This document shows positions 1-9,947 of a DNA stretch of 64,000 nucleotides, one piece after another. Under the pieces are notes generated by a model. The model searched no databases. It was given only the letters and a program-made list of their open reading frames with translations, and was not told where the DNA came from. A program made the translations under genes and the position numbers. Numbering within the stretch: position 1 is the stretch's first letter; every line of letters begins with the position of its first letter. Location: assembly GCF_020042665.1 (NCBI RefSeq), contig NZ_CP083376.1:1400001-1464000 (forward strand), written 5' to 3'. The stretch comes from Pseudoxanthomonas sp. X-1. Lineage in GTDB: Bacteria; Pseudomonadota; Gammaproteobacteria; Xanthomonadales; Xanthomonadaceae.

Positions 1-669
1 CAGGCGCTCGCGCAGCGCGGACGCGCCGCGCTGCCATTCCGGCGCACCGTAGAACGCGGCTTCCTGCGCGGCGTGGTCGTCCGTGATGGTCAAGGCCATC
101 AACTGTTCCAGCGTGACGCCACCCGCACGGTAGTCGTCCAGCAGGCGCGCCGAGACGTTGGCGAGCTTCAGGCGGCGCTGCACCACCAGCGGGGACACGC
201 CGAAGTCGGCGGCAATGTCTTCGATGGGGCGGCCTTCCTTCACCAGCGCGGCGAACGCCTCGAACTGGTCGGCGGGGTGCATCTGCTCGCGCAGCAGGTT
301 TTCCGCGAGGCTGACGGTACGCGCCGAGGCATCGGGCACCAACAGGCACGGCACTTCGTAGTCGGCGGGGATGCGCTTCTTCTTCGCCAGCAGCTTCAAC
401 GCGGTCAGGCGGCGGTCGCCGGCAACGACTTCGTACTGCTCGCCATCGGCGGCGAGGATGACGATGAGGTTTTGCAGCAGGCCGACGCGGGAAATGCTCG
501 CGGCTAGTTCGGGGATGGACAGGCGCGGCGTCCTGCGCGCGTTGCGCTTGGAGCGGCGCGGCTGCAACTGCGAGAGCGGAACCAAGATCAGATTCTTGGT
601 CGGGTCGGCGGCTTCCAGCGGCGCGGCGGTTTCGATGGCGATGACTTCGGTTTTGAGTACGGCGTTCAT
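1..669 (-). CDS. ParB/RepB/Spo0J-family partition-like protein, C-terminus cut off by window edge
   Basis: The reading frame is open from an ATG at 669 to the window edge, giving 223 N-terminal residues without a stop. A good ribosome binding site (AGGAG, 8 bases before the ATG) supports the start. The protein shows the ParB nuclease-fold boxes: VVAGDRRLTALK (about residues 78-89) and the ENLLREQMHPADQFEAF stretch (about 120-136). These are followed by a helix-turn-helix (IEDIAADFGVSPLVVQRRL). Chromosomal and plasmid ParB proteins bind parS sites and act with ParA. Copies in integrative elements, often beside DUF932, probably work in maintenance or regulation. No parA is visible here. The family call is firm; the exact role is inference. 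Confidence 0.88.
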   Translation of the reverse strand, partial: MNAVLKTEVIAIETAAPLEAADPTKNLILVPLSQLQPRRSKRNARRTPRLSIPELAASISRVGLLQNLIVILAADGEQYEVVAGDRRLTALKLLAKKKRIPADYEVPCLLVPDASARTVSLAENLLREQMHPADQFEAFAALVKEGRPIEDIAADFGVSPLVVQRRLKLANVSARLLDDYRAGGVTLEQLMALTITDDHAAQEAAFYGAPEWQRGASALRERL

Positions 670-747
670 GGTGATAACTCCTAGCGGTTGGGATGCAGCA
701 GCGAGAGAAGCGGCAAGGGCTGCTGCCCGCCCCTGCCGCTGTGGGGT

Positions 748-1575
748 TCAGGCTTTCAACTGGCGCAGGCCCTCGGCCAGCAGCCACAGGGCGCGGTTCA
801 GGCGCAGGTCTTGGTCGATGCCGTGCACGGGGCGGGTGGTCTGGCGGCGACCGTTGGCGCTGCGACCGTGCAAGCCGCCGCGCAAGAGGTTTTCCTGCGT
901 GCGGTTGAACACGCTCCACAGGTCGCGGCGGTCGTCGTCGAGACGGCGCGGCGCGAGCACCTGCGTTTCGGTGATGGGTGCGGGCTTGTCGGGGGCGTCG
1001 TACTTCAGCGCCAGCGCGGCACGCGCGAACACTTCGGCTTCGCCGGTGTCCAGCGTGACGGCCTGCATGGCATCGCGGGATTCCTGCGCGCGGTCGAAGC
1101 CGTGCAGCACTTCGTATGCGCCTTCGATGACGTGCGCGGCTACGTCGCCCTTGTGCGGCACGCGCACGTCGGCCACGGTGTCACCGCATACCAGTCCGTT
1201 CTTGCAAACGAACCGGAACATGCCGGCGAGCATTTGGTAGCTGCTCGTTCCGTCATGGGAGTTCAGCAGGATGATTTCGTTGGCCTCGCGGCCGTTGATC
1301 TGGCTGGCGTGGCGCAGCCGGATCATGTGCTTGGTGTAGTCGCGGCGGTCGTCCTGCCGCACGCGGGTCTGCGTCACCATGAAAGGCTCGAAGCCTTCGC
1401 TGCGGAGTTCGCGCAGCACGGTGGCAGTGGGGATGTAGCTGTACCGTTCCGAGCGGCTTTCGTGCGGGGCGTCCGCGAAGATGGACGGGGCTACGGCGCG
1501 GATTTGGTCATCCGACAAGGGATGTTCCGAGCGCAGCACCGGGGAGCGGGATGCGAAGCGGGAAGCAAGTTGCAT
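748..1575 (-). CDS. DUF932 domain protein (phage/plasmid-like, YfjQ-type)
   Basis: A 275-residue protein starting MQLASRFASRSPVLRSEHPL. The ATG at 1575 is preceded by AGGAGAA at good spacing, so it is preferred over an earlier in-frame start at 1617. The sequence has the DUF932 pattern: the SYIPTATVLRELRSEGF segment, the (K)HMIRLRHA segment, and FRFVCKNGLVCGDTVADVRVPHKG. DUF932 proteins are common on conjugative elements and prophage-like islands. Their biochemical function is not established. It lies 78 bases upstream of the ParB-like gene in the same direction, so the two are probably co-transcribed island backbone genes. Confidence 0.85.
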   Translation of the reverse strand: MQLASRFASRSPVLRSEHPLSDDQIRAVAPSIFADAPHESRSERYSYIPTATVLRELRSEGFEPFMVTQTRVRQDDRRDYTKHMIRLRHASQINGREANEIILLNSHDGTSSYQMLAGMFRFVCKNGLVCGDTVADVRVPHKGDVAAHVIEGAYEVLHGFDRAQESRDAMQAVTLDTGEAEVFARAALALKYDAPDKPAPITETQVLAPRRLDDDRRDLWSVFNRTQENLLRGGLHGRSANGRRQTTRPVHGIDQDLRLNRALWLLAEGLRQLKA

Positions 1576-2106
1576 GGTCGTTCTCCTGACAAGGGTTGCT
1601 GTCGAAAAAGCCACCACCGGATTCCTAGATTCGGAGCCCGCCTTTCGGCTTCTCCGGTGGGGTCGGCGCGGAGACCTGGGCCGGCCTCGTTGCCACCGTC
1701 TTTCCTGAGTTCATCGCCCGCGACGGTCAGGAGCGCGCGGACGGGGGCCGTCAAGGAGACAAGCGCAGGGTTGGTGCGGCCCGCAGGCGCAGCCGAGGAC
1801 ACGGCCCTGCGCGCCTTGACGGCACACGGCCGCGGGCTACAGTCGCGGACAAGGTGATGAAGTCAGGAAAGGCGGATCGACAGGCGACGGCCGCTACGTT
1901 GGCGCAGACACCACGCAAGCGAAGCGCGCAGGCCCGGATCTCGGAGCCGGGCCGAAGGCCGCGCCGGCGCAGCCGGGGCGGCGGCATTGCAGGGGCGCCA
2001 AGCGCAGCGCGGCGGGGATAGCCCGCAGGGCTTTCCCCTGGAGTGCAAGCGCAGCGCGCAGCGCCGAAGGCGCGAAAGCATCGACATCAGACGCAGCAAA
2101 AAGAAA
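1576..2106. other. Island intergenic region without a supported gene
   Basis: About 530 bases between the DUF932 start and the left end of the ISL3 transposon. Short overlapping frames exist on both strands, but none has a recognisable protein or ribosome binding site. The stretch 1890-2080 is rich in repeated GCGCAGCGC/GAAGGCGC-like words, typical of accessory-element spacers. It probably contains the promoter of the leftward DUF932-parB unit, but I see no convincing -35/-10 pair. Confidence 0.5.
2099..2106. repeat. Left target-site duplication of the ISL3 mercury transposon (AAAAGAAA)
   Basis: The eight bases AAAAGAAA lie immediately outside the left inverted repeat and are repeated exactly at 6728-6735, outside the right one. 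An 8-bp duplication is the usual size for ISL3-family elements. Exact identity supports a real, fairly recent insertion rather than chance. Confidence 0.9.
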
Positions 2107-2129
2107 GGGTATCCGGATTTTAGTGTGGG
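2107..2129 (+). repeat. Left terminal inverted repeat of the ISL3 mer transposon
   Basis: It begins GGGTATCCGGA and ends GTGTGGG. Compared with the reverse complement of 6705-6727 it differs at only three internal positions (12, 14 and 16). It abuts the AAAAGAAA duplication on its outer side. Confidence 0.9.
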
Positions 2130-2208
2130 AAGACCGCACTAGCCCTTCTTGTCTGACAGCTCTCGTTCGGTAGGTTTCTGGTATCGCAAGGCTTACGCGC
2201 TTTTAGCC

Positions 2209-2220
2209 TTCAGTGTGGGC
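2209..2220 (+). repeat. Left subterminal copy of a GTGTGGG-containing repeat
   Basis: TTCAGTGTGGGC here is matched by an inverted TTCAGTGTGGGT at 6601-6612, 11 of 12 bases. Both lie a little over 100 bases inside the two element ends, and both share the GTGTGGG core of the terminal repeats. They may be secondary transposase-binding sites; this is inference. Confidence 0.6.
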
Positions 2221-2286
2221 TTTGTCTGGCGCATGTCGGTGCAAGGAAACAATCAGTGGCAGGTCACCTTGCCCCCGGCTCGAACT

Positions 2287-2324
2287 GGGGTTTGAGGCGC
2301 AGTGGAACGGAAAACCGGGTTAAG
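2287..2324 (+). repeat. Possible relic of a Tn21/Tn501-type 38-bp terminal repeat beside merR
   Basis: This stretch is exactly 38 bases long, starting GGGG and ending TAAG, with GCAG and CGGAAAA inside. It lies 8 bases beyond the merR stop codon, with GGGG pointing outward. Tn501/Tn21-type mercury transposons have 38-bp ends of that form directly outside merR. The match to the remembered consensus is only partial, so this may be chance. If real, it marks where the mer genes came from before capture by the ISL3 element. Confidence 0.35.
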
Positions 2325-2332
2325 CCACGCGC

Positions 2333-2740
2333 CTAGCTCCCGTGCAGAGAATCGATCAGCGGGCACGACACAGTGCCTCGCTGCGCATGGCACTCGTTGA
2401 CCAACCGTGACAGCACCGCTTCGATTCGCGTCAGGTCCGCCATCTTGGTGCGCACGTCGGTGAGCTGGAGCGCAGCCAGCTCGGCGGCTTCGCTGCAGTG
2501 AGTGCCGTCCTCAAGCTGTAGGAGTTGGCCGACTTCGTCCAGGTTGAACCCCAGCCGCTGGGCGGATTTCACGAAACGCACCCGCGCCACGTCCGCCGAT
2601 CCGTAGCGGCGAATACTGCCGACGGGCCGACCTGGTTCTGGCAATAACCCCTTGCGCTGATAGAACCGGATGGTCTCCACGTTGACCCCAGCGGCCTTGG
2701 CGAAAGCCCCGATGGTCAGTGTTTGCGGATCGTTCACCAT
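2333..2740 (-). CDS. merR: Mercury-responsive transcriptional regulator MerR
   Basis: A 135-residue MerR-family protein. Its N-terminal winged helix-turn-helix ([26 protein letters not shown]) binds the mer operator, and a long dimerisation helix follows. The three Hg(II)-binding cysteines of true mercury MerR proteins are all present: Cys82 (THCSEA), Cys117 (NECHA) and Cys126 (VSCPL). Family members repress the structural operon without metal and, on binding mercury, untwist the promoter to activate it. It is divergent from merT, with its start only five bases from the merT -35 element, so it also controls itself. The length is normal for the family. Confidence 0.97.
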
Positions 2741-2745
2741 CGCGC

Positions 2746-2776
2746 TTGACTCCGTACTTGACTACGGAAGTAACCT
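2746..2776 (+). promoter_or_regulatory. mer promoter-operator (merTPA) with 19-bp spacer
   Basis: TTGACT (2746-2751) and TAACCT (2771-2776) are separated by 19 bases, the over-long spacer that MerR-type activators correct by DNA distortion. Within the spacer is the dyad CCGTA-N6-TACGG, the classical MerR operator. This matches the known mer promoter architecture closely and predicts mercury-induced transcription. Confidence 0.93.
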
Positions 2777-2814
2777 TAGCGCATCACGCAACGTCTCGGA
2801 AGGAGATCCCTCAC

Positions 2815-3165
2815 ATGGCAGACCCCAGCAACGGCCGCGGTGCACTGGCCGCCGGTGGCCTCGCCGCCATCCTCGCCTCGACCTGCTGCCTCGGTCCGCT
2901 GGTGCTGATCACGCTGGGTTTCTCCGGCGCCTGGATCGGCAACTTGACCGCGCTGGAACCGTACCGGCCGATCTTCATTGGCGTGGCGCTCGTGGCGCTG
3001 TTCTTCGCGTGGCGTCGCATCTTCCGGCCGGCTCGCGCCTGCGCGCCGGACGACGCATGCGCCGTGCCCCAGGTGCGGACGGCCTACAAGGTGATCTTCT
3101 GGATCGTCACCGCCCTGGTGCTGATCGCGCTCGTGTTCCCCTACCTCATGCCCCTGTTCTACTGA
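2815..3165 (+). CDS. merT: Mercuric ion transporter MerT
   Basis: A 116-residue inner-membrane protein, the usual MerT size. The ATG at 2815 follows AAGGAGAT; an in-frame ATG upstream at 2719 lies across the promoter and is rejected. Three hydrophobic segments are visible. The first contains the adjacent pair Cys24-Cys25 (STCCLGPL), and a cytoplasmic loop carries Cys76 and Cys82 (CAPDDAC). These pairs pass Hg(II) from MerP across the membrane to MerA. It is the first structural gene of the operon, 12 bases upstream of merP. Confidence 0.96.
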   Translation: MADPSNGRGALAAGGLAAILASTCCLGPLVLITLGFSGAWIGNLTALEPYRPIFIGVALVALFFAWRRIFRPARACAPDDACAVPQVRTAYKVIFWIVTALVLIALVFPYLMPLFY

Positions 3166-3177
3166 AAGGAGATTGCC

Positions 3178-5161
<1,984 letters not shown>

Positions 5162-5243
5162 TGGCTGGGCCTCTTACCTATGCTTCATCGGCTGAATCAC
5201 AAATTCAGGCTGAAGCGCCGCCTCTTGCACAATGGGCTGAGGA

Positions 5244-6584
5244 CTATTCGAAATACCCCTCTTCGAGTAGCCGCGCCAGCGTCGGGAGATAGGGGCCGTA
5301 CTCGACCACGCGCGTGATCTTCTTCTTGCGCGTTGCCGCCGTGGTCATCCGCTGGAACACGAAGTCCGTGGTCATTGGGTCGTCGTCATCGACCAACACG
5401 GTTTCGATAACCGAGCCATCCTTGCGCGCCTTCTTGTCGTAGAGCATGCGCGCCCGAAGCACCTCGAAGCTGTAACCCCTGCCCATGCGGTTCATGTCTT
5501 TGGCCACTCGGTTGACTGACTCAGTATAGGCATTGGTAATCGGCTGCTCGAAGTAGGCGAAGATTTCGTCGTGCCAGTTGTGCACGGCGGTGGTCAGGTC
5601 CTTGAACGTGGCCGCCAATTCGGTCGGAATATTGGCCTGCCACTTCGCGCAGGCGGCTTCTGCTGCTGGGCGGGTCTTCTGATCCCAGATCGACAGAAAT
5701 CCTTCCTTGAGCGCGTGGGCTTCGCTTAGGAGCGGGAACTGTTGGAACCATTCCCGCATCCGGTCCATATCTCTCCCTGTCAGGTCGTGCTGCCGCTTGA
5801 GCAGCAGGAACCGCTCGTCCTTGAGTTTGAGGCGCTGCCGGGTGGACAAATCCTTGCGAATGCGCTTGCGCAGCTTCTCCAGCGCGTCGTTCGCCATGCG
5901 CTGGATATGGAATCGATCGACCACGATCCGGGCCTGTGGCAGCGTGGCGCGCACCACCTGCCGATAAACGTGGTACATGTCCATCGCCACCCACTCGACC
6001 GAGTCCTTGTCCCGCAGGTCGCGGAAATAGGGCATCAACTCGGCTTTGGCCCGGCTGGGGCGGATATCGAACACGGTCTTGCGCTCGACGTTGGTGATCA
6101 TGGCCCGGTACTGGCCGATGATCTTGAGCTCGTCGATACCCAGCACCCGCGGCGTCCGGAACTGGGTCTTGGCCTCGACCTCCTCGATGAAATCGTCGAA
6201 GACGTGGCGGACCGTCTTTTCGTCCACGGCTACTTCCCGGGCAAGGGCCGCAAAGGTCTTGGAGAAGGACTGGTCGCGGATATAACGCACCAGACGCGCC
6301 GTGGCTTGGCGTTTTCCATCAAGGTCCGCCACAGGCTCAAACAAGGTCTTGGTGCAGCTTGTACAGCGATAGCGACGGCGCTGGATGAAGATCACGACGG
6401 GTTTGCCGTGCGTCGGTGTGTCCTGAAACGACTGTTCCTGTGAGCCGTGACCATGCAGGCGTCCGGTCTTGCACAGCGGGCAGGTCACCCACTGATTGAC
6501 GCCTTCGGCCTTGACGACGTAACTGTCCTCGCTGGTCAGGATTTCAAGCGTCTTCAGGCTTCGCAGCTGGAGAAAGTCCGTCAC
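5244..6584 (-). CDS. tnpA: ISL3-family transposase
   Basis: A full-length 446-residue transposase. The N-terminus has a zinc-ribbon-like set of cysteines (CPLC at 35-38, CTSC at 74-77) and a helix-turn-helix region (about 95-135). The catalytic core has GIDELK (Asp151), MDMYH (Asp202), DRFH (Asp223) and TNAYTESVN (Glu355), the pattern of ISL3 DDE transposases. The stop is 82 bases from the merA stop, so the genes converge. Nothing suggests decay. It is bracketed with mer by one pair of inverted repeats, so it probably mobilises the whole unit. Confidence 0.95.
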   Translation of the reverse strand: MTDFLQLRSLKTLEILTSEDSYVVKAEGVNQWVTCPLCKTGRLHGHGSQEQSFQDTPTHGKPVVIFIQRRRYRCTSCTKTLFEPVADLDGKRQATARLVRYIRDQSFSKTFAALAREVAVDEKTVRHVFDDFIEEVEAKTQFRTPRVLGIDELKIIGQYRAMITNVERKTVFDIRPSRAKAELMPYFRDLRDKDSVEWVAMDMYHVYRQVVRATLPQARIVVDRFHIQRMANDALEKLRKRIRKDLSTRQRLKLKDERFLLLKRQHDLTGRDMDRMREWFQQFPLLSEAHALKEGFLSIWDQKTRPAAEAACAKWQANIPTELAATFKDLTTAVHNWHDEIFAYFEQPITNAYTESVNRVAKDMNRMGRGYSFEVLRARMLYDKKARKDGSVIETVLVDDDDPMTTDFVFQRMTTAATRKKKITRVVEYGPYLPTLARLLEEGYFE

Positions 6585-6600
6585 TCAGCACCTTGGGCGA

Positions 6601-6612
6601 ACCCACACTGAA
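6601..6612 (-). repeat. Right subterminal copy of the GTGTGGG-containing repeat
   Basis: Read on the minus strand this is TTCAGTGTGGGT, the inverted partner of 2209-2220. It lies just downstream of the transposase -10 element and upstream of its start codon. Transposase binding here could repress its own gene; this is inference. Confidence 0.55.
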
Positions 6613-6623
6613 ATCCGACTTTT

Positions 6624-6651
6624 ACTCTAGCACATCCGCTCAGCCGTCCAA
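6624..6651 (-). promoter_or_regulatory. Probable transposase promoter
   Basis: On the minus strand TTGGAC (6651-6646) and TAGAGT (6629-6624) are separated by 16 bases. They lie about 40-70 bases upstream of the transposase ATG at 6584. Spacing and sequence fit a moderate sigma-70 promoter. Confidence 0.55.
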
Positions 6652-6704
6652 CACCAAAATCCATTCTTTGAAAGTGATAGCTACAAAGACCTAAGGAGCC
6701 AGAA

Positions 6705-6727
6705 CCCACACCAGATTCCGGATACCC
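6705..6727 (-). repeat. Right terminal inverted repeat of the ISL3 mer transposon
   Basis: The reverse complement starts GGGTATCCGGA and ends GTGTGGG, matching the left end at 20 of 23 positions. It is directly followed by the AAAAGAAA target duplication. Confidence 0.9.
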
Positions 6728-6735
6728 AAAAGAAA
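6728..6735. repeat. Right target-site duplication (AAAAGAAA)
   Basis: Exact copy of 2099-2106. On the minus strand it reads TTTCTTTT and doubles as the U-tract of the terminator at 6736-6763. Confidence 0.9.
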
Positions 6736-6763
6736 GGCGCGTCGCCCCGAAGGACGATGCGCC
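6728..6763 (-). terminator. Rho-independent terminator, target of the transposon insertion
   Basis: A 9-bp stem (6736-6744 with 6755-6763, one G-T pair) with a 10-base loop is followed on the minus strand by TTTCTTTT. It ends transcription of the leftward gene stopping at 6781. The transposon inserted at the end of this T-tract and duplicated it. Confidence 0.75.
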
Positions 6764-6780
6764 GGGTTGTCGGCGTGCGA

Positions 6781-7176
6781 TCAGTTCGCCGCCGGTGCAA
6801 CCATCGACTGCAACTGCTCAATGACGCCGGGTTCGACGAACACGCACGGCTGGTTGGCTGCGATCGGCAAGTTGAACACGCGAGCGAACACCTCGCGTTT
6901 CAGGTGCGCCAGGCGACCCGTGCGATATGCCTGTTCGGGCTTTACGTTCGCACCGCCCGCCGGCGAGCCGCTGCGCTGCGGATCGCATTCGATGAGTGCG
7001 ACAAAGCCATCGTCGGACAGCTTCTGGTGTTCGGCGCACAGGCCCCAGCCGGTGGCCGTGTGGTGCTCCATGCTCGCGCGCAGGCGGCGATCCAGCAGGA
7101 TGGCGCCGGTGTCGAAGCGAACGCCGCAGACAAGGCAAACGTGTTGTTCAAGGGAAACGTGCGATTTGTCGTTCAT
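6781..7176 (-). CDS. Island protein of unknown function with a CxxC zinc-ribbon-like N-terminus
   Basis: A 131-residue protein starting MNDKSHVSLEQHVCLVC. The ATG at 7176 has GGAGAT upstream; an earlier in-frame start at 7335 is less likely. Cys14-x2-Cys17 and a later LCAEH (Cys and His) could bind a metal, and the middle is acidic and polar. I do not recognise a named family. Its place between the integrase-nuclease pair and the DUF932/ParB genes suggests an accessory gene of the mobile element. The terminator just downstream supports a real transcription unit. Confidence 0.7.
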   Translation of the reverse strand: MNDKSHVSLEQHVCLVCGVRFDTGAILLDRRLRASMEHHTATGWGLCAEHQKLSDDGFVALIECDPQRSGSPAGGANVKPEQAYRTGRLAHLKREVFARVFNLPIAANQPCVFVEPGVIEQLQSMVAPAAN

Positions 7177-7507
7177 GACGATCTCCGGTTGCACGGGCGG
7201 AATTGCCCGGAACCGTCGCCAGCACGGCGCAGCGCAAGCAGTCAGGGGGCAAAGCCGGCCGCCAGGACGCCAGCGCGCTATACGCGCGCAGCCCTTGACG
7301 GCGAGAACGCCGTGGTACGGTGAAGGGAACAGCAAGACCGCCTACACCCCGCCCAATGCACATACCCGCCTTTGGCAAGCGGAGCGTGCAGGCCCACGAG
7401 GGCCGAAGGCGTCAGGGGTCAAAGCCGGATGGCCGCGATTCGGCACGAAGCGCGGGGCGCAGCCCGCGAACCCGACGGCGGCACGCCAGGACGCACGGAT
7501 GCTGCTG
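7177..7507. other. Island intergenic region with a short direct repeat
   Basis: No supported gene. It contains an 18-base direct repeat, GTCAGGGGGCAAAGCCGG (7241-7258) and GTCAGGGGTCAAAGCCGG (7411-7428), 17 of 18 identical and 170 bases apart. This may be a binding site for the element's own proteins or a duplication trace. The promoter of the leftward 131-residue gene must lie here, but none stands out. Confidence 0.5.
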
Positions 7508-8575
7508 TCAGGACTTCTCGCTAGGCTCCCGCTGCTCGATCTGCAACCGCGCCCGCTCGGTCGCCTGCTGCAACTTCTCGCCCAGCACCGCACGCGGCGG
7601 CAAGCTGGTCAGGTACTCGGCAACATGGATGCCCGACTTGTCCAGTTCCAGCAATTCGATCTGCTCGCGCTTCTTGCCGGTGCAGAGAATGATCCCCAGC
7701 GGCGAGGCTTCTTCCGGCTCGCGCTCGTGCTTGTCCAGCCAGCGCAGGTAAAGCTCCATCTGCCCCTTGTAGGCTGCCTTGAACTCGCCGATCTTCAACT
7801 CCACCGCCACCAGCCGCCGCAGCTTGCGGTTGTAGAACAGCAGGTCAAGGTGGAAATCCTCGTCGTCGATCTGGATGCGCTTCTGCCGGGCCACGAAGCT
7901 GAAACCGGCGCCCAGCTCCAGCAAGAACGACTCCATTTCGCGGATGATCGCCGCCTCCAGATCGCCTTCCTGCCAGGTGTCCCGCAATCCCAGGAAGTCG
8001 AGGATGTACGGGTCGCGCATGACCAGGGCGGGCGACATGCGCTGCGCATCGCGCATCGTGGCCAGCTCCTTCGCGATCGTCTCGCCCGGCTTCTTGGATA
8101 GGGCCGTGCGTTCGTATAGCATCGAGTCGATGCGCTCGCGCAGCGTCCGCACGCTCCAGCGTTCGGCGCCTGCCATCTGCGCGTAGTAGTCCCGCTGGAG
8201 CGGGTCTTTCAGCGGGATGAGGGCGATGAAATGCGTCCAGCTCAATTGTCGTATCAGTGATACGACAATCTGCTCGTCGGGAAAGGTGGCGGCGAACTGC
8301 ACCATACGGCGCAGGTTCTTGACCCCGAAACTGCTGCCGTATTCCTTCACCAACTGCGCCGCCAAGGTCAACACGACTTCCTCGCCGTAGTCGGCCCGCC
8401 GGCCCTCCAAGACTTGCGTGTGGATGCGCTGGCCGATGCGCCAGTAGAGCATCGTCAACTCGCTATTCACCGTCGAAGCGGCGCGCTGCCGCGCCGCCTC
8501 GATCAGTGTCCGAATGTCACTCAGCAATGCCGACGGCACTGCGGACGATGCCACGGATGACCGGCGCCCGTTCAT
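7508..8575 (-). CDS. YhcG/DUF1016-family PD-(D/E)XK nuclease
   Basis: A 355-residue protein. The N-terminal DUF1016 domain runs from about residue 15 to 170 (SDIRTLIEAARQRAASTVNSEL, YWRIGQRI, the FGVKNLRRMVQFA stretch). The C-terminal nuclease fold has DFHLDLLFYNRKLRRLVAVELK, with Asp and E-x-K as probable catalytic residues, then GQMELYLRWLDK. Members are linked to mobile elements and restriction loci; the substrate is not established. The ATG at 8575 overlaps the integrase stop (ATGA), so translation is coupled. The frame continues upstream without a stop into integrase sequence, but that part is a shadow frame. Confidence 0.9.
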   Translation of the reverse strand: MNGRRSSVASSAVPSALLSDIRTLIEAARQRAASTVNSELTMLYWRIGQRIHTQVLEGRRADYGEEVVLTLAAQLVKEYGSSFGVKNLRRMVQFAATFPDEQIVVSLIRQLSWTHFIALIPLKDPLQRDYYAQMAGAERWSVRTLRERIDSMLYERTALSKKPGETIAKELATMRDAQRMSPALVMRDPYILDFLGLRDTWQEGDLEAAIIREMESFLLELGAGFSFVARQKRIQIDDEDFHLDLLFYNRKLRRLVAVELKIGEFKAAYKGQMELYLRWLDKHEREPEEASPLGIILCTGKKREQIELLELDKSGIHVAEYLTSLPPRAVLGEKLQQATERARLQIEQREPSEKS

Positions 8576-9771
8576 GCCGCCCCCTCGGCCAGCTGGCGAG
8601 CGCCCGTAATGGCTTGGCGCCGGCTCGCCACCAGCTCGGCCGCATCGCGCACCGGCTTGTCCTCGGTGTGAACGTAGTGCATGAACATCGCCACGGTTTT
8701 GTGGCCCGTCAGCTTCATGCCTACCTTGGTCGGCACGCCAGAATTGGCAATGTCGGTCGTCGAGCGATGGCGGATGCCGTGCGTGCCGACATGTGGCACA
8801 CCGGCGGCCTTGAGCACGCGCTTCCAGCCGCTGTAATGCTCGCCAAAGGTCAGGTGCTTGCTCGGGTCGTTGGGCGATGGCAGAACGTAAGGACAGCCTT
8901 CCCGACGCGGCGCTGTCGAAAGCAGCCGATAGGCTTCCGCGCTCATGGGCTTGGAAATGCCGCCGGTCTTGCTGTCGGGCCACACCACGCGCCGCTTCTC
9001 GAAATCCAGCCAGTCCCATTCGAGCGGGCAGATTTCGGAACGTCGCGCGGCGAACTCGAATTGCAGGCGGATCGCCAGCGGGATGACATAGTTTTCGAGC
9101 CCTTCCGCCTCCAGCTTCTCCAAGTGGCGGAAGATCAGTACCAGCTCGTCGTCCACGATGAGCCGGGTTTCCTTGCCAGGTGGGTACATCGGAACGTGCC
9201 GGCACGGGTTGGTGCCATCCGGTCGCAGGCCCCATACCTCTGCCATGTTGAACATCTTGCGCAGCACTCCGAAGGTGCGGTTGGCTTCGGCCGGCTTGTA
9301 GGCCAGTTTTTTCATCAGTGCCGCGATGTCGGGACGCTTTACGTCCTGCACCTTCATCCGGCCCATGATAGGGATGATGTTGCGGTTGATGACGCCCCAG
9401 TAGCCGCGCTGGGTGGTTGGCTTGTTGCGTTGCTTGGAGTAGTCCTCCATGAAGGTGTGGCAATACTCCTTCATGGTCGGTGCCTTGCGGGCGGCGGTCT
9501 TGGCCGCGCCGGGATCGCCGCCCCGGCGTACTTCGGCCAGCCAGTCCTGCGCCATGACGCGGGCCTGCTCGACGGTTAGTTCGCCGAACAGTCCCAGGGC
9601 GGGCTTGCGACGCTGGCCGGCGTTCGTACGGTACTGGAGCATGAACACCTTGCGACCCGCTGGAGTAATCTTGCAGAGGAAACCCGGCACGGCGGTATCT
9701 CGCAGTTCAACCGCCTGCGCTCGGGGCTGCGCCGCATCGACGGCGCTCTTGGTGAGTTTGATCTTTGCCAT
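8572..9771 (-). CDS. int: Tyrosine site-specific integrase
   Basis: A 399-residue recombinase. The ATG at 9771 (MAKIKLTKSAVDAAQ) follows GGAGGAG; a longer in-frame start at 9807 lacks such support. Domains in order: an N-terminal arm-binding domain (about 1-95), a SAM-like core-binding domain (about 98-185), and the catalytic domain. The catalytic residues are Arg243 (ARRSEI), His331-x2-Arg334 (HGIRH), His357 (LTGHKT) and the nucleophile Tyr366 (FMHYVH). It sits at the element's right boundary and presumably integrates and excises it. It overlaps the nuclease gene by four bases. No excisionase gene was seen. Confidence 0.95.
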   Translation of the reverse strand: MAKIKLTKSAVDAAQPRAQAVELRDTAVPGFLCKITPAGRKVFMLQYRTNAGQRRKPALGLFGELTVEQARVMAQDWLAEVRRGGDPGAAKTAARKAPTMKEYCHTFMEDYSKQRNKPTTQRGYWGVINRNIIPIMGRMKVQDVKRPDIAALMKKLAYKPAEANRTFGVLRKMFNMAEVWGLRPDGTNPCRHVPMYPPGKETRLIVDDELVLIFRHLEKLEAEGLENYVIPLAIRLQFEFAARRSEICPLEWDWLDFEKRRVVWPDSKTGGISKPMSAEAYRLLSTAPRREGCPYVLPSPNDPSKHLTFGEHYSGWKRVLKAAGVPHVGTHGIRHRSTTDIANSGVPTKVGMKLTGHKTVAMFMHYVHTEDKPVRDAAELVASRRQAITGARQLAEGAA

Positions 9772-9947
9772 GCTGACTCCTCCGGCACCCCGGTTTCCAG
9801 GTGCCACGTGGGAGTCACGCGGGCGGAAGCCGGGTCAAGTTGCTGAAAGCACCGGCATAGGATGGACTGACCTAAGTCCTTGATAAACCTGCCACAGCGA
9901 GCCAGGTCGTAGTCCAGCGAAGTTCGGTGCTGGAGTCATCGTGAAAC

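Follow-up and report, generated by a model that had tools for sequence, protein, structure and literature searches.

Mercury resistance is usually tied to transposons of the Tn3 and Tn402 types, and the question raised by a 64,000-nucleotide stretch of the Pseudoxanthomonas sp. X-1 genome (contig NZ_CP083376.1, positions 1,400,001 to 1,464,000, called here the window) is what carries the merRTPA operon found in it and where this operon came from. The operon lies inside a complete ISL3-family unit of 4,621 bp (window 2107-6727), in which merR (reverse strand), merT, merP and merA (forward strand) and one ISL3 transposase gene (reverse strand) follow each other between the two ends. The whole is best explained as an autonomous passenger-carrying ISL3 transposon with a functional mer cargo derived from a Tn3-family transposon, a reading of mobility, function and origin together to which a probability of about 0.9 can be given. 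The structure of the unit, its duplications, its multiple sites, the empty sites, the Tn3-type repeat and the variation of the cargo can be read directly in the DNA.

The two terminal inverted repeats, 2107-2129 and 6705-6727, have 20 of 23 positions (87%) in common and the octamer AAAAGAAA stands outside both of them, at 2099-2106 and at 6728-6735, as an exact 8-bp duplication; imperfect terminal repeats and an 8-bp target duplication are those of the ISL3 family. Among 70,022 identical 8-mer pairs lying 0.8-15 kb apart in the window, the AAAAGAAA pair has the best terminal inverted match, the runners-up being two pairs with 18/23 each, and about 7e-6 such structures per window would be expected by chance (a uniform-base estimate). 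A preliminary description, made from the sequence alone, had reported the repeats, the duplication, the boundaries 2099-6735 and a complete transposase. All of these were confirmed on re-analysis, the boundaries to the base, the transposase being an open frame of 446 aa that matches ISL3 profiles. Two flanking insertion sequence copies, as in a composite transposon, are not present: there is one transposase gene, and the host genome (4.52 Mb, single contig) has one full copy of the unit.

The transposase search covered one genome each of 84,980 species and returned 35 loci, 14 of which were used (four of these form one site together with the window). A copy was counted if it was at least 94.5% identical and both of its ends and flanks could be read; the count also takes in plasmid records, the window and G015 (the source of locus L171). 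Near-identical mer units occupy 14 distinct sites, no two of them with similar outer flanks, and the copies are 99.8-100% identical except L052 (94.5%). The duplication is exact at 12 sites (8 bp at 11 and 9 bp at one, L051), has one mismatch in L171 and is absent from L053; most duplications are visibly A/T-rich tracts. Moreover, the integrative-element segment that surrounds the window copy was found without the insertion in G319, G184 (identical alignment) and G330, where the alignments, at 82-85%, run through the insertion point and contain one A-rich tract. Since there are 14 sites, 12 of them with exact duplications, and three relatives without the insertion, sequence comparison confirms that the mer module moves as one ISL3 unit, as had been claimed; transposase and mer genes have gone together to all 14 places, as in a passenger-carrying ISL3 element. 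The preliminary description had also proposed looking for units at different sites, each with its own duplication, and these were found (11 with exactly 8 bp). As to the empty site that it hoped to see in a related genome, three genomes lack the insertion; their sites are homologous and not identical. Neither of the findings that it considered contrary to mobility (a single locus with the repeats; mer and transposase in separate contexts throughout) was encountered.

The copies come from Lysobacterales, Thauera and Zeimonas, and from metagenome-assembled genomes (MAGs) labelled Nevskia, Acetobacteraceae and Alphaproteobacteria. Plasmid copies are present in Dyella sp. BiH032 p1, among conjugation genes and with the duplication ATAAAAAA, and in three X. 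euvesicatoria plasmids (including pXpT32.1 and pXpT39.1) with the duplication CAATTGCT; the plasmid copies L007 and L008 are at the same site as L006. In L008 (X. euvesicatoria T0319-01 plasmid p3191.1) the Tn3-like ISXc4 interrupts the copy after its first 445 bp, within merR. L068 was counted as a site although another element interrupts its copy. Left out of the count were loci whose contig equals the element and has no flanks (L046, L057, L061), interrupted or cut copies (L050, L056, L063, L065, L067, L074), copies lacking the last 8 bp of one end (L054, L069), units with other cargo (L058, L064), distant relatives (L071-L073, L075) and a sister lineage of about 81% identity, in which exact 8-bp duplications are present in L059, L060 and L066 and none in L070. 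The contigs of L046 (4,621 bp), L061 (4,520 bp) and L057 (4,594 bp) are exactly element-sized and are possibly collapsed multi-copy elements in draft assemblies. A preference for intrinsic terminators was also considered; strong-terminator scores were obtained at 7 of 19 sites and in 25 of 153 control A/T tracts (one-sided Fisher test, p = 0.038, with a threshold set after the data had been seen), too weak a difference to claim.

The unit and its borders contain the following features, with the basis of each in brackets.

2099-2106, no strand: left target-site duplication AAAAGAAA, one A-rich tract in empty relatives (sequence)
2107-2129, forward: left terminal inverted repeat (IRL), without differences among the 14 main-lineage copies compared (sequence)
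2204-2219, forward: left subterminal repeat, 11/16 to the core of the inverted repeat (sequence comparison of ends)
2287-2324, forward: Tn3-family terminal inverted repeat, 38 bp (GGGG...TTAAG), probable relic of the cargo donor
2333-2740, reverse: merR, Hg(II) regulator, 135 aa, Cys82/117/126 (profiles, alignment)
2746-2776, forward: mer operator/promoter, TTGACT, 19-bp spacer with dyad, TAACCT (sequence)
2815-3165, forward: merT, 116 aa (profiles)
3178-3456, forward: merP, 92 aa (profiles)
3467-5161, forward: merA, 564 aa, N-terminal HMA domain, CVNVGC redox motif, C-terminal CC (profiles, alignment)
5244-6584, reverse: ISL3 transposase, 446 aa, GTG start, candidate DDE residues D151, D223 and E355 (profiles, alignment)
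6602-6617, reverse: right subterminal repeat CGGATTTCAGTGTGGG, matching the IRL core at 15/16, immediately upstream of the transposase start
6648-6663, reverse: second right subterminal repeat, 13/16 (sequence comparison of ends)
6705-6727, reverse: right terminal inverted repeat (IRR) (sequence, copy comparison)
6728-6735, no strand: right target-site duplication AAAAGAAA (sequence)

The transposase matches DDE_Tnp_ISL3 (PF01610) at 5.9e-62, PF14690 at 6.4e-10 and PF13542 at its cut-off in Pfam, scores 306.8 bits against the NCBIfam model transpos_ISL3 (NF033550; cut-off 180) and has the DDE, zinc-ribbon and helix-turn-helix domains of the ISL3 family. When it is aligned with six relatives, D151, D223 and E355 are among 13 invariant acidic positions; they would form the DDE triad of an enzyme that is presumably active. 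Both ends of the unit contain additional copies of the repeat core. The GTGTGGG part of the left subterminal repeat is kept in L057, L059, L066 and L169 and not in L064, and CGGATTTCAGTGTGGG is recognisable in 8/8 right ends aligned, non-mer relatives included. These repeats may be extra transposase-binding sites, with possible self-repression of the transposase gene. In the proposed mechanism the single DDE transposase would bind the terminal and subterminal repeats and move the whole 4,621-bp unit, mostly into A/T-rich tracts, with an 8-bp duplication.

The cargo proteins MerR, MerT, MerP and MerA score above the NCBIfam cut-offs of TIGR02051, NF010314, TIGR02052 and TIGR02053/NF010311, respectively, and MerR is below one further subfamily model (NF010315, 225 vs 261 bits). 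The three cysteines of MerR are present, as are the redox motif and the terminal CC pair of MerA, and the operator between merR and merT is one that we take to resemble merOP of Tn21/Tn501. With merR, merT, merP, merA, a divergent operator and no merB, the operon is of the narrow-spectrum type and is predicted to confer mercury resistance: mercury would induce merTPA through MerR at the divergent operator, MerT and MerP would import Hg(II) and MerA would reduce it to Hg(0).

Outside the unit there is a DUF932 gene on one side and, about 1.8 kb past the right end, a tyrosine integrase gene (8572-9807), so that the surroundings (window 1-2106 and 6728-9807) look like an integrative element with which the window copy could also travel; no tRNA was found in a search of the window. 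One insertion in one such element is common to five loci including the window, with flanks 90-100% identical. The window shares it with Dyella AtDHG13 and with MAGs labelled Nevskia, Acetobacteraceae and Proteobacteria.

The probable source of the cargo is indicated by a sequence that the preliminary description missed. Between the ISL3 left end and the merR stop lies the 38-bp repeat at 2287-2324, with GGGG at its outer end and TTAAG at its inner end, 8 bp from the merR stop. In transposons of the Tn21/Tn501 type merR adjoins a 38-bp terminal repeat that starts with GGGG. Four plasmid stretches (Acinetobacter, Polaromonas, Paraburkholderia, Burkholderia) contain the repeat with 2-3 mismatches, and in Paraburkholderia pBN2 (L174) a 5.7-kb unit lies between two inverted copies of it, with the 5-bp repeat ATGCT on either side, a structure that is a sign of a Tn3-family end. 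An identical copy (38/38) adjoins a resolvase gene (PF00239) in G142. As controls, 20 shuffled motifs gave no matches in the four plasmid stretches and the reversed pattern gave none in the genomes listed. In a sample of the order the motif is present at up to 3 mismatches in 10/396 genomes, in nine of them within copies of the ISL3 mer element (one of the nine, G125, has only the left 231 bp of the element) and in G142 outside it. Moreover, a degraded repeat (27/38) occupies the same place in the divergent L057 lineage. Because a Tn3-family repeat stands beside merR, the mer cargo was probably taken over from a Tn3-type mercury transposon, at the end where merR lies, with the 38-bp repeat still beside it, and re-housed in a one-gene ISL3 carrier; we infer the direction and the route of this capture from the arrangement of the parts. 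The 5.7-kb unit of pBN2 (L174 10003-15686) contains ABC-transport and TauE/SafE genes, and a Tn3 transposase gene lies just outside it.

Three other explanations have to be weighed against an autonomous transposon with captured cargo. The unit could be no longer active and have spread passively, on plasmids and integrative elements, from few old insertions. Passive carriage is real, as seen in the five loci that share one insertion, but the 14 distinct sites, their mostly perfect duplications and the near-complete identity of the copies (L052 apart) need repeated recent transposition, and this explanation is very improbable. Still less credit can be given to the idea that the mer operon is part of a Tn3- or Tn402-type mercury transposon which an ISL3 element entered later. 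Such a transposon would account for the 38-bp repeat beside merR; however, this repeat is the only one of its kind in the window at up to 11 mismatches, no second, inverted one being found, and no Tn3 transposase, resolvase or tni gene (tniABQR in the Tn402/Tn5053 type) is among the five genes identified between the ISL3 ends, which are merR, merT, merP, merA and the ISL3 transposase gene. In addition, it is the 8-bp ISL3 duplication, next to the outer ends, that accompanies the unit from site to site. The likeness to the Tn21/Tn501 type is limited to the mer operon with merR next to the repeat, whereas the two 38-bp repeats, TnpA and TnpR and the 5-bp duplication of a Tn3-family mercury transposon are not those of the unit.

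The third explanation, in which the 38-bp repeat is left from an unrelated Tn3 insertion and stands by chance beside mer genes that arrived on their own, is unlikely and nevertheless clearly more probable than the other two. It draws on the failure to find a donor with the repeat directly beside a near-identical merR, and it has to leave to chance both the orientation and place of the repeat, which are those expected at a merR end, and its degraded counterpart in the L057 lineage. Several observations weigh against the transposition and capture preferred here. The unit has a single Tn3-type repeat; the searches turned up no intact Tn3 donor in which this repeat stands beside a closely related merR, and its neighbours in the matches read are genes for a resolvase or an integrase, or unrelated ones. 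In the 4,520-bp sister lineage a scan of L059 and an alignment of L059 and L066 revealed no recognisable Tn3 repeat. Among the 14 sites, L053 (Thermomonas) lacks a duplication and that of L171 is imperfect, and the duplications of L006 and L052 are only 5/8 A/T. Because the 4,520-bp lineage shows no such repeat, the common ancestor of all mer-carrying relatives may not yet have undergone the capture. The host genome has a second mer operon (L002, G000:C1:2659579-2662383), about 80% identical, and the match does not reach the ISL3 ends; a Tn3 donor was sought there and in L039 and L040, and no Tn3-type repeat was found within 11 mismatches.

The cargo of related ISL3 elements varies. The 4,520-bp lineage (L059, L060, L061, L066), for which we know of no published name, resembles the window unit in its ends, mer genes and ISL3 transposase but differs in the identity of its parts (tnpA 82%, merA 81%, merR 74%). 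In the transposase tree, whose deep branching is weakly supported, mer is carried by the window lineage, by the 4,520-bp lineage with L063 and by L057, and no mer genes were found in L058 (cut by a contig end), L064, L169 and L071. In the merA tree the window merA groups, with support, with L017, L039 and L040, apart from the 4,520-bp lineage. As far as the flanks of L039 were read, neither side places it in an ISL3 unit, and the ISL3 context is only partly visible in L017 (short contig) and L040 (near a contig start). Because of this grouping, with L039 outside an ISL3 unit, the merA sequences suggest that mer was gained or replaced more than once. Within single carriers, L052 has a transposase 99.9% and a merA only 87.5% identical to those of the window copy, and in L033 merP is 92.5% identical among parts of 98.6-100%; these divergent genes indicate that mer genes are exchanged inside near-identical carriers.

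Relatives without mer also have exact duplications, namely L064 (8,780 bp, AATAAAAA) and L169 (3,796 bp, AAAAAAAT). The cargo of L169 (10325-12482) consists of a transglutaminase-like gene, a fragment without a Pfam hit that we read as RHS-like, and a small gene, and in L071 (5706-12507) a related ISL3 carrier holds an RHS-repeat gene with small neighbouring genes. In Pseudoxanthomonas kaohsiungensis (L058, 11645-12973) an ISL3 relative is followed by PEMT/ICMT-like and AadA-type genes, and the contig ends before the far repeat. An exchange of cargo at the merR boundary was considered for G125 and rejected: it matches only positions 1-231 and its contig ends 133 bp later, in a stretch without a plasmid match, which we read as an interruption or an assembly break and not as different cargo. 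At roughly even odds, the ISL3 clade is a general one-gene carrier whose ends and transposase stay nearly constant; in it one lineage would have taken the merR end of a Tn3-family mercury transposon, its sisters would have gained mer separately, had it replaced or hold other cargo, and recombination could swap the cargo inside near-identical carriers.

The preliminary description stated that passenger-carrying ISL3 elements exist, and published examples are, in the parts of the sources available, ISPst2 (PMC6305408), ISPs1 (PMC3960245) and ISPpu12. ISPst2 (2,985 bp; ends beginning GGGTATCCGGA and GGGTATACGGA) resembles the mer unit in its AT-rich 8-bp repeats and in passengers beside one transposase, whereas these passengers are an ArsR-type regulator and a permease and not mer (PMC6305408). 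The likeness of ISPs1 (2,982 bp) is in its 8-bp repeats (PMC3960245). ISPpu12 (3,372 bp; locus L181) is likewise an ISL3 unit with metal-related passengers, but its transposase is about 44% identical and co-directional with the cargo, which comprises cadR, a cation transporter gene and lspA. In P. putida W619 merRB is next to ISPpu12 and mer genes are near ISPs1, in the available text not inside either (PMC3056050).

The distribution of the transposase gene was examined by near-mode DNA searches, which detect roughly 85% identity and above. Of 72,556 plasmid records 4 have the gene, and 5,426 complete E. coli genomes gave no match; a protein search of the plasmids yields another 2 records at 60-80% and 4,770 below 60%. 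In the order sample (398 genomes) a 1,484-bp query is present whole at 100% in 8 genomes, own genome included, over 998 bp at 100% in one and at 80-83% in 4; in a phylum sample of 398 genomes it reaches at least 80% over its length only in G000 and G100. No relative of the transposase was found among viral contigs, and the phage set gave a single record, Salmonella phage SJ1, annotated merA, with 81% identity over 30% of the query.

Whether the element already has a name is a related question. NCBI records label this transposase ISStma11 family, and copies 99.9% identical are in records with this label and with mer genes inside. A BLAST table prints a hit to the ISfinder entry ISStma11 at subject positions 3426-3409 (PMC10383950, seen in part). 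Because the registered sequence is at least 3,426 bp, it must hold more than the transposase, and the mer unit is probably already catalogued as ISStma11. These labels, the length of the entry and a partly available report of merRTPA flanked by an ISL3-like transposon (PMC11573517) make the earlier suggestion of an undescribed element doubtful. For S. maltophilia K279a, merRTPA is listed and mercury resistance placed in a complex mobile region in the available part of the text (PMC2643945). The 4,621-bp mer unit was not found described as a unit in the accessible text of the literature searched (PMC).

In the available parts of Salmonella papers ISStma11 is placed next to merTPCA or merT-P-A-B in gene lists that lack merR, and another Salmonella study took its IS names from Prokka files. 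ISStma11 was also detected through ISfinder in chicken-farm plasmids and in wastewater, and other papers with the name do not mention mercury in the text available. Transposase DNA is in only the 4 plasmid records given above, yet 3,991 further records match the element at 60-90%, and among these the 36 listed all match the mer genes; this comparison rests on plasmid records, Salmonella and Klebsiella chromosomes lying outside the search. The ISStma11 entry of ISfinder likely holds mer open reading frames, so that merR receives its name, and what is called ISStma11 next to mer genes in Salmonella is probably merR under the wrong label.

What is new here is the Tn3-type relic and the variation in cargo. 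The mer operon is carried by an ISL3 unit with one transposase gene, and this unit hardly differs between different proteobacterial hosts. Where ISStma11 is recorded next to mer in plasmids of Salmonella, and perhaps also in surveys of Klebsiella and wastewater, the DNA behind the name is probably that of mer genes and not that of an ISL3 transposase. The unit offers a traceable case of cargo passing between transposon classes, in which the relic shows the probable source type and, if the reading is true, a multi-gene, cointegrate-type resistance transposon would have been turned into a small unit with one transposase.

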